Assembly: GCA_030643545.1 (NCBI GenBank) | Contig: DAOWLE010000017.1 | Span: 1 to 49,953 of the forward strand | Reading direction: 5' to 3' | Length of the DNA: 49,953 nt | Source of the DNA: a bacterium | GTDB lineage: Bacteria; Patescibacteriota; Minisyncoccia; JAHIHE01; DAOWLE01 | Shown: piece by piece, positions 10,787 through 13,700 of the stretch | Layout: the number at the start of each line of letters is the position of its first letter | Numbering within the stretch: the stretch's first letter is position 1 | Program-made: the position numbers and the translations under genes | The notes under the pieces: model-generated | Databases searched by the model: none | What the model was told of the DNA's origin: nothing | The model's input: the letters and a program-made list of their open reading frames with translations, nothing else

Positions 10787-13700
10787 ATGCCGCAACAACT
10801 AAATTTTCCCGAGCAAGAAAAAGAAATTTTGAAATTTTGGGAAAAAGAAAAAATATTTGAAAAAAGCTTGGATAAAACTAAAAAATGTCCAAGGTTTATT
10901 TTTTATGAGGGGCCGCCTTTTGCCAATGGCCTGCCGGGAATTCATCATCTGCTTGCCCGCGCTTTTAAGGATACAATTATCCGCTATAAAACAATGCGCG
11001 GTTTTTTTGTTGAAAGAAAAGCCGGATGGGATACGCATGGTTTGCCGACAGAAATAGCCGCGGAGAAAAAATTGGGAGTTAAAACAAAAAGCGATATTGA
11101 AAAAATTGGCGTTGAAAAATTTATTGAGGCATGCAAAGAAAATATTTTTACTTATAAAAAAGAGTGGGAAGAATTTACCCACCGCATCGGTTATTGGCTT
11201 GATTTTAAAAATGCTTACATCACCTGCAAAAATGATTACATTGAATCCTTATGGTGGATTTTAAAAAAGATTTGGGAAAAAGGTCTTTTGTATGAAGATT
11301 ATAAAGTTGTACCGTATTGTCCGCGATGCGGGACGAGTTTGTCTTCGCATGAGCTTGCGCAGGGCTACAAAAAGATTAAGGAGAAATCCATTTATATAAA
11401 GTTTAAAGTAAAAAATCAAAAAGATACCTATTTTTTAGTTTGGACTACTACGCCTTGGACTTTACCGGGAAATGTCGCTTTGGCGATTGGAAAAGACATT
11501 GATTATGTATCAGTGAAACTCAAAACTCAAAACTCAAAACTCAAAGCCACAACTAAAAACTTAAATCTAATTATTGCTAAAAATATTTTTAAAAAATGGA
11601 AAGAAAATAGTAAAAGTAATTATATTATCTGGAATCAAGAAGGAGAAGAAATTGCTGACAAAAATGATTTTGATATAATGCGTTTTTGTTATGATTCAAA
11701 AGTTATTAAAGAATTCAAGGGCAAAGATTTATTAAATTTAGAATATGAACCTTTATATAATTTTATAAAACCAGACAAGCCAGCTTATAAAGTAATTGCC
11801 GGAGATTTTATTACAACTGAAGAAGGGACAGGAATTGTGCACATTGCTCCGGCTTTTGGCGAGGAAGATATGAGAGTTGGAAAAGAAAATAATTTGCCGG
11901 TTTTAATGCCGGTAGACGCGGAAGGGAAATTCAAAAAAGAAATTACGCCATGGGCGGGAATGGCGGTTAAAAACGCAAATGGCAATGACGCTAATCCGTT
12001 AATTATTAAAGATTTAGAAAAAAGAAATCTGCTTTTCAACACAGAAATGTATGAGCATGATTATCCTTTTTGCTGGCGATGCAATTCTCCGCTTATTTAT
12101 TTTGCTAAAAATTCCTGGTTTATAAAAATGACTGAAGTCAAAAAACAATTGCTTGAAAATAATGAAAAAATTAATTGGATTCCAAAACATATTAAAAAAG
12201 GGCGGTTCGGCGAATGGCTGAATGAAGTTAAAGATTGGAATCTTTCCAGAGAAAGATATTGGGGGGCGCCGCTGCCTATCTGGAGATGTGATAGCTGCAA
12301 AGAAATAAAGGTTGTTGAATCTCGTGATGAATTAAAAAAATATAATAATAAAATCACAAAATTAATATTTGTTCGGCATGGCGAAAGTAAGAAAAATACT
12401 TTAAATATTAGATCAAGTAGCGTAGATAAGTATCCATTGACAAATAAGGGCATAGAAGAAAGTAAAAAAATCGCAACTAATTTCAATGAGAAAATTGATA
12501 TTATTTTTTCTTCTCCTACTCTTAGAACAAAACAGACAGCAGAAATATTAAATAAAAAAATAAATGTTGAGATGAAATTTGATGATTTGATTTCTGAATA
12601 TAATTATGGGAAATGGGAAAATTTATCAAGGGAGACACTTTTGAAGGATAATGATTATCAAAAGTATAAAAAAATTAGTTTTAAAGAAGAAAGATTTAAT
12701 TTTAAACTTGGTATTAATGGAGAATCAAGAAAAGAAATAGTTGAACGAGTCGGAAAATTTATTAAAAAAATCATAAAGGAACATTCAGGTAAAACAATTT
12801 TACTTGTTAGCCATGGCGGGATTAATGCTGCAATTAATAAAATTTTAAATAATTGCAGTATTGATGAATATTTTATTCAGGAAGGCATTGACCACAACAT
12901 TGTCCAAGATTTTTATATTAATGAGGACAGAACATCTTTGGATTTGCACAAACCCAATATTGATCAAATAAAATTCAAATGTGAAAAATGCGGAAGTATT
13001 ATGAAGCGTGTACCGGAAGTTTTAGACTGCTGGTTTGATTCCGGAGCGATGCCTTACGCTAAGTGGCATTATCCTTTTGAAAATAAAGAAAAAATAGATA
13101 AAAGATTATTTTTTCCCGCGGATTTTATCTGCGAAGGAATTGACCAGACCCGCGGATGGTTTTATACGCTTCTGGCGATTTCCACTTTATTGGAATTAGA
13201 TCCAGCGTATAAAAATGTAATTTCTTTGGGACTTGTTTTGGATTCTAATGGCCAGAAAATGTCAAAATCAAAAGGAAATATTGTGAAGCCGCAGGAAGTT
13301 ATTGATAAATTTGGCGTTGATTGCGCAAGATTCTATTTTTACACGGTTAATCAAGTAGGAGAGCCGAAAAAGTTTGACCTGAAAGAAATTCAGGATTTAT
13401 CCAGAAAATTTTTCGGAACTTTGCAAAATAGTTATACTTTTTTTGAAACCTATGTTGATAATAATCAGCAATCAGCAATCAGCAATCAGCAATCAGCTTC
13501 GCAAAATTTGTTAGATAAATGGATCGTTTCAAGATTAAATAACTTAAATAAAAAAGTTGTAAAAAATTTGGATAATTATAATATTGTAAGCGCGGCGAGA
13601 TTGTTTGAAAATTTTGTTGATGATTTGTCCAACTGGTATATCCGCCGTTCGCGCAGAAGATTTCAAAAGCCAAAAGATGAAAAAGAAAAAAATGAAGCAG

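Follow-up and report, generated by a model that had tools for sequence, protein, structure and literature searches.

The window analyzed here (the whole stretch of 49,953 nucleotides of Patescibacteria DNA) carries an ileS gene, uninterrupted by stop codons, whose product is confirmed to be a type-2 isoleucyl-tRNA synthetase (IleRS) with a complete branch-1 histidine phosphatase (HP) domain between the Cys pairs CDSC and CEKC (Table 1). The original prediction, made from sequence alone, that an HP is embedded in IleRS is borne out by two profile matches in a single open reading frame. The protein scores 940.6 bits against the TIGR00392 ileS model, which satisfies membership in the IleRS family (cut-off, 621.4), and its residues 526 to 695 (nucleotides 12362 to 12871) match His_Phos_1 (PF00300) with 113.8 bits (1.1e-32; gathering cut-off, 21.7). 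The expected length of ∼200 amino acids also held. The predicted range of nucleotides 12290 to 12990 was too wide, as it takes in both cysteine pairs; in the insert-free close relatives L008, L009, and L010, only ∼10 amino acids separate the flanking segments “..S..EL..” and “DLHRP”.

Table 1. Features of the ileS gene in the window
Feature	Position (nt)	Strand	Evidence
ileS, type-2 IleRS with inserted HP, 1195 aa	10787..14374	+	TIGR00392, PF00133, Anticodon_1 PF08264, His_Phos_1 PF00300
Class I signature GIHH (aa 51-54), non-canonical GXHH form of HIGH	10937..10948	+	sequence
Upstream CxxC knuckle CDSC (aa 501-504) of putative zinc ribbon	12287..12298	+	sequence; pLDDT 94
HP insert, about aa 519-718, ~200 aa	12341..12940	+	PF00300; boundaries from comparison with insert-free L008/L009/L010
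RHGE motif, R530 and nucleophilic H531	12374..12385	+	R and H in 62/62 IleRS inserts
SSPTLRT, second catalytic Arg R580	12509..12529	+	R in 62/62 IleRS inserts
SEYNYG, acid E604	12593..12610	+	E in 61/62, D in 1/62 IleRS inserts
VSHGG, second catalytic His H676	12806..12820	+	H in 62/62 IleRS inserts
Downstream CxxC knuckle CEKC (aa 732-735)	12980..12991	+	sequence; pLDDT 85-87
KMSKS motif of synthetase (aa 824-828)	13256..13270	+	sequence

The catalytic elements that had been read from the sequence (RHGE, a second Arg, the acidic residue of SEYNYG, and VSHGG) are intact as R530, H531, R580, E604, and H676, and the insert meets the definition of a branch-1 HP by its PF00300 score, fold, RHG motif, second Arg, acid, and second His. 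The four catalytic Arg and His residues are invariant in all 62 inserts at the zinc-ribbon site of IleRS and in the 3 inserts compared at another site. Conservation of the catalytic residues is essentially complete although the inserts are only 30 to 40% identical to each other. Catalytic competence of the insert, for which there are no activity data, is very likely, as inferred from this conservation and from the fold. The host enzyme, in turn, meets the requirements for a class I synthetase (HIGH/GXHH signature and KMSKS). The GXHH variant of this signature is known in IleRS2, where it accompanies mupirocin hyper-resistance (PMC10485003); judging from the motif alone, the window IleRS may be intrinsically insensitive to mupirocin.

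In a full-length AlphaFold2 model built with 32 sequences (mean pLDDT, 88.5; pTM, 0.76), local pLDDT values are 82 to 95 in the insert core, 85 to 94 in both knuckles, and 62 to 75 in the exit linker (residues 691 to 720). The insert modelled alone (pLDDT, 91.2; pTM, 0.87) resembles the phosphoserine phosphatase 4ij6 (4ij6_B) with a TM score of 0.82, and the whole model resembles IleRS2 8c8v (TMt, 0.79) and 1ile (TMt, 0.87). The nearest solved relatives of the window IleRS are 8c8w and 1ile, i.e., the type-2 enzymes of Priestia and Thermus. The proposed interleaving of two folds in one polypeptide stands insofar as both folds are modelled, and the insert does lie between the two CxxC pairs, as claimed. 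Of 45 insert-bearing IleRSs, 22 have both Cys pairs, as do 21 of 40 insert-free ones; because the pairs are as variable without the insert as with it, the zinc ligands are optional and the loop, not zinc, is the common feature. The zinc site was therefore rejected as the point of the insertion. Overall, the initial interpretation of the folds, catalytic residues, and position is supported.

None of the curated HP subfamilies matches the insert above its cut-off, so that a substrate cannot be transferred from known HPs. Cofactor-dependent phosphoglycerate mutase was rejected on the scores of dPGM_arch (87.5 of the required 225 bits), PRK14120 (34.8 of 366), and GpmB (49.7 of 261). A role as the sole phosphoglycerate mutase, or in glycolysis, is not supported, since no mutase model exceeds its cut-off and genome G000 encodes two PF01676 metalloenzymes, members of a family that includes cofactor-independent mutases. 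Assignment by homology also failed for phosphoserine phosphatase (PspA, 82.5 of 350 bits; PRK13463, 44.6 of 277) and for the alpha-ribazole phosphatase CobC (86.6 of 162.9). On the synthetase side, membership in the ileS_w_GNAT family (NF040702) was ruled out by a score of 329.8 of 1999, and the GNAT domain is absent from the window protein.

Far from being an isolated case, the insert is nearly universal in the class to which the window belongs and recurs across the phylum and in valyl-tRNA synthetase (ValRS). A genome scan recovered the same architecture in L003 to L007 and did not find it in the IleRSs of named non-Patescibacteria. The insert profile was then compared with 380 Patescibacteria genomes, ∼85 fetched loci (mostly from metagenome assemblies) were annotated, and IleRS was checked in selected genomes. 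The survey of related Patescibacteria suggested with the original prediction confirmed recurrence of the insert, which is present in 25 of the 32 sampled genomes of the window's class. The HP is encoded by a nearby upstream gene in 3 others (G274, G349, and G332) and is unlinked in G174; no close HP was found in G205, G257, and G282. A profile scan favors good matches, so degenerate inserts could escape it, but they could not escape a complementary survey that scored IleRS matches split at model position ∼500 without any selection for HP. All of the 9 same-class genomes in this survey and 11 others showed the split (20 of 126 IleRSs above the cut-off across the phylum), and each of the 20 split sites carries an HP. 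In a second phylum, that of the genome containing L011 (by inference, Chloroflexota), no IleRS was split at position ∼500 in the 137 genomes with IleRS matches. One Chloroflexota frame (G531:C84:14742-16958) encodes an IleRS-like protein of 1578 amino acids that is unusually long and has a weak IleRS score.

HPs occur at two IleRS sites besides the zinc-ribbon loop. At the third site, the HP follows “..STYANIDGW” (L140 and L141; similarly positioned in L137); the IleRS of L141 contains three HPs, one of them after “GAMPYGSVHYPF”. The IleRSs of family f83 carry two tandem HPs, each from a different HP clade. In eleven ValRSs, HPs occupy either the equivalent loop or a position behind the “..DTWFSSG..” segment. 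Nine of these were identified as ValRS by NCBIfam models (L126, L127, L130, L131, L142, and L144 to L147), and the other two, L173 and L170 (with two tandem HPs), were assigned on the basis of the valS survey and their weak scores as IleRS. Both synthetases are occupied in four genomes (G223, G366, G046, and G243), and G243 has three HP domains in IleRS (L141:2367-7082) and one in ValRS (L173:1707-5012). Other enzyme domains were also seen within synthetases: the ValRSs L130:2127-5957 and L131:2095-5937 contain an RBBP9-like serine hydrolase together with the HP, L130 has a HAD_2 domain in addition, and in the IleRS L140:3438-7790 a GNAT acetyltransferase is inserted after the HYPF-equivalent segment, with the HP further downstream. 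Among the matches listed and checked, IleRS and ValRS are the only large proteins with internal HPs, other fusions, to MFS and VTT membrane proteins, being terminal. Examples of the latter are C-terminal fusions to VTT-domain (L149:4366-5676) and MFS (L148:4385-6256) proteins. The window's genome and a relative also encode a second HP family (L162:5245-5883 and L113:5384-5938), in which VHGT replaces RHGx and the first catalytic Arg is replaced.

The same HP is also found as a separate gene. In L008, L009, L108, and L109, its frame overlaps the beginning of ileS; three of these loci (L008, L108, and L109) have argS before the HP and recO after. In L111, the HP and ileS lie ∼850 bp apart. These solo genes nest among the inserts in the HP tree. 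Several genomes have exactly one HP, which is either only the insert (G380, G381, and G384) or only the upstream gene (G385 and G386), and the insert is the sole HP found in 11 of the 25 insert-bearing genomes of the class.

The phylogenies of the insert and its host conflict. The window IleRS body groups with the insert-free L008 and L009 (support, 100/100), and the window HP groups with those of L007, L114, and L115 (100/99), whose IleRS bodies sit elsewhere. The AU test rejects a single clade of the window, L007, L114, and L115 in the body tree (p = 6e-119), as well as a grouping of the window HP with the L008 and L009 HPs (p = 5e-4); the groups for these tests were picked after the first trees had been seen. 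Vertical inheritance of the insert together with its host is thereby rejected, and the conflict implies transfer of the module among IleRS backbones, into one and the same loop. In a wider body tree, the “insert” label changes 12 times, at least 8 of these changes being forced by starred branches, with gains and losses not separable; the long HP branches leave deep HP relations uncertain. In the closest, unsaturated pair, L003 and L006 (dS, ∼0.7), dN/dS is 0.104 for the N-terminal part, 0.078 for the HP, and 0.142 for the C-terminal part; the insert in this pair is under purifying selection as strong as that on the host. For most pairs of lineages, the HP has changed more quickly than its host synthetase (e.g., in L094 and L096, the N-terminal parts are 86% identical and the HPs 47%).

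With a probability of roughly one-half, we interpret the gene product as a genuine bifunctional enzyme whose phosphatase serves the Ile and Val synthetases, acting on a small phosphorylated by-product or analogue; no assay data are available for either substrate or activity. The grounds for this interpretation are observed rather than inferred: the architecture, the conserved catalytic residues, the purifying selection, the recurrence in IleRS and ValRS, the movement between synthetases, and the operon-neighbor state. The mechanism is an inference. The HP, placed in the loop of the second Cys-knuckle subdomain of a type-2 IleRS, would form a phosphohistidine at H531, with E604 as the acid, and would dephosphorylate a small molecule that is generated at, or inhibits, the Ile and Val synthetases. 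Candidate substrates are nucleotidic by-products, whether derived from the adenylate or not, and phosphorylated analogues. The domain would act in cis as a clean-up partner, for which contact with the aminoacylation site would not be required. Coupling to Ile/Val charging is supported by the restriction of internal HPs, among the matches checked, to these two synthetases, the several insertion sites, the tandem copies, and the gene overlapping ileS; it is weakened by the genomes in which no HP besides the insert was found and by the faster divergence of the HP in most pairs. The unlinked HP of G174, the absence of a close HP from G205, G257, and G282, and the lack of a subfamily match that would name a substrate also count against it. 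More speculatively, and at odds that we regard as distinctly unfavorable, the Patescibacteria HP could be a cis-acting activity dedicated to assisting the Ile and Val synthetases, comparable to editing but working by dephosphorylation. It would clear a particular phosphorylated product or analogue of Ile/Val activation that is toxic or inhibitory, and it would pass from one synthetase gene to another as an interchangeable module.

The main rival to a charging-related role, which we do not favor but consider a serious possibility, is that a general housekeeping HP, once encoded next door, became lodged in a permissive loop of a synthetase that is essential and highly expressed, its activity being selected yet uncoupled from aminoacylation. 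The argS-HP-ileS gene order offers a ready source for such capture, and HPs are also found fused to unrelated membrane proteins. The same reading accommodates the 11 genomes of the class in which no other HP was found, as well as the single HPs that are either inserted or upstream. However, it does not readily explain why repeated capture is seen only in IleRS and ValRS, and at several different sites, or why some genomes have tandem copies and both synthetases occupied (G223, G366, G046, and G243): extra copies are unexpected if one general phosphatase suffices. It also seems improbable that the HP domain is structural or allosteric and only incidentally catalytic, as it would be if, for instance, it sensed phosphate or a metabolite to tune IleRS. 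The insert does adjoin the catalytic-core segment that ends in DCWFDSG, and its flanking knuckles are confidently modelled, but retention of essentially all catalytic residues over such divergent inserts and interchangeability with the separate-gene state argue against this role.

Hydrolysis of the PPi released in aminoacyl-adenylate formation, which would pull the reaction forward, is very improbable even though the synthetase forms PPi directly and the ValRS of L130 contains another hydrolase family, HAD_2, besides the HP. A dedicated pyrophosphatase (PPase) family is encoded in all 13 same-class genomes with an HP in or beside IleRS: family I in 7, the membrane type in 5, and family II (a DHHA2 match) in G000. 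In total, exactly one clear dedicated PPase family was found in 13 of the 14 genomes tested (G000, G043, and G061 among them), and none of the three types was found in G174, the genome with the unlinked HP; a sub-cut-off DHHA2 match in G118 was left out of this count. A role of the HP as the cell's pyrophosphatase is accordingly not supported, and HPs are not known as PPases. That the insert is an assembly chimera or a decayed, functionless insertion can be practically dismissed. It is somewhat AT-richer than the flanking parts of the gene (25.9% G+C versus 34.0% and 31.5%), but a chimera, the outcome that would have refuted the original prediction, is excluded as regards the architecture because L003 to L007 and many more independently assembled genomes, dozens in all, share it; purifying selection and the intact catalytic residues speak against decay.

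The recurrent acquisition, swapping, and duplication of the HP module point to an undescribed, selected link of phosphate removal with protein synthesis, and the recurrence makes a phosphatase role in Ile/Val charging a directly testable question. A literature search, with subscription journals and preprints outside its scope, found nothing on IleRS or ValRS with a histidine phosphatase, phosphoglycerate mutase, or inserted domains; nor did it find a paper on a link to Ap4A. The inserted, tandem, swapped, and split states form a natural series for studying the entry of domains into essential enzymes.

Enzyme domains added to synthetases are already known (NF040702; PMC7694997), although no description of an HP in IleRS or ValRS was found in the literature searched. 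The type-2 (eukaryote-like, mupirocin-insensitive) IleRSs of Priestia megaterium (8c8v) and Thermus (1ile) are collinear with the window protein over the whole body (TMt, 0.79 to 0.87), with KMSKS present and the GXHH variant as in PMC10485003, but in the known structures, unlike in the window protein, the loop that follows RYWGxPLPxW holds no enzyme domain. The metal-independent phosphoserine phosphatase PSP1 of Hydrogenobacter (4ij5/4ij6), CobC, PhoE, and the riboflavin-pathway HFP (9mmh) share with the insert the branch-1 fold (TM, 0.82) and all catalytic residues; these are stand-alone enzymes, whereas the window HP is an internal insert. Members of NF040702 resemble the window protein in that IleRS bears an enzyme domain, albeit a different one, an N-acetyltransferase, as in L140, which has GNAT and an HP at another site. 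The MetRS-aminotransferase of Mycoplasma penetrans is likewise a synthetase fused to an active metabolic enzyme, and the extra domain has been shown to provide that synthetase with its amino acid substrate (PMC7694997). However, that domain is an N-terminal appendage with other chemistry in a single lineage, whereas the HP lies within the synthetase body, is catalytically complete, and is near-universal in a class of tiny-genome bacteria; it occurs repeatedly, and at several sites, in two sister synthetases and can be exchanged with an operon neighbor.
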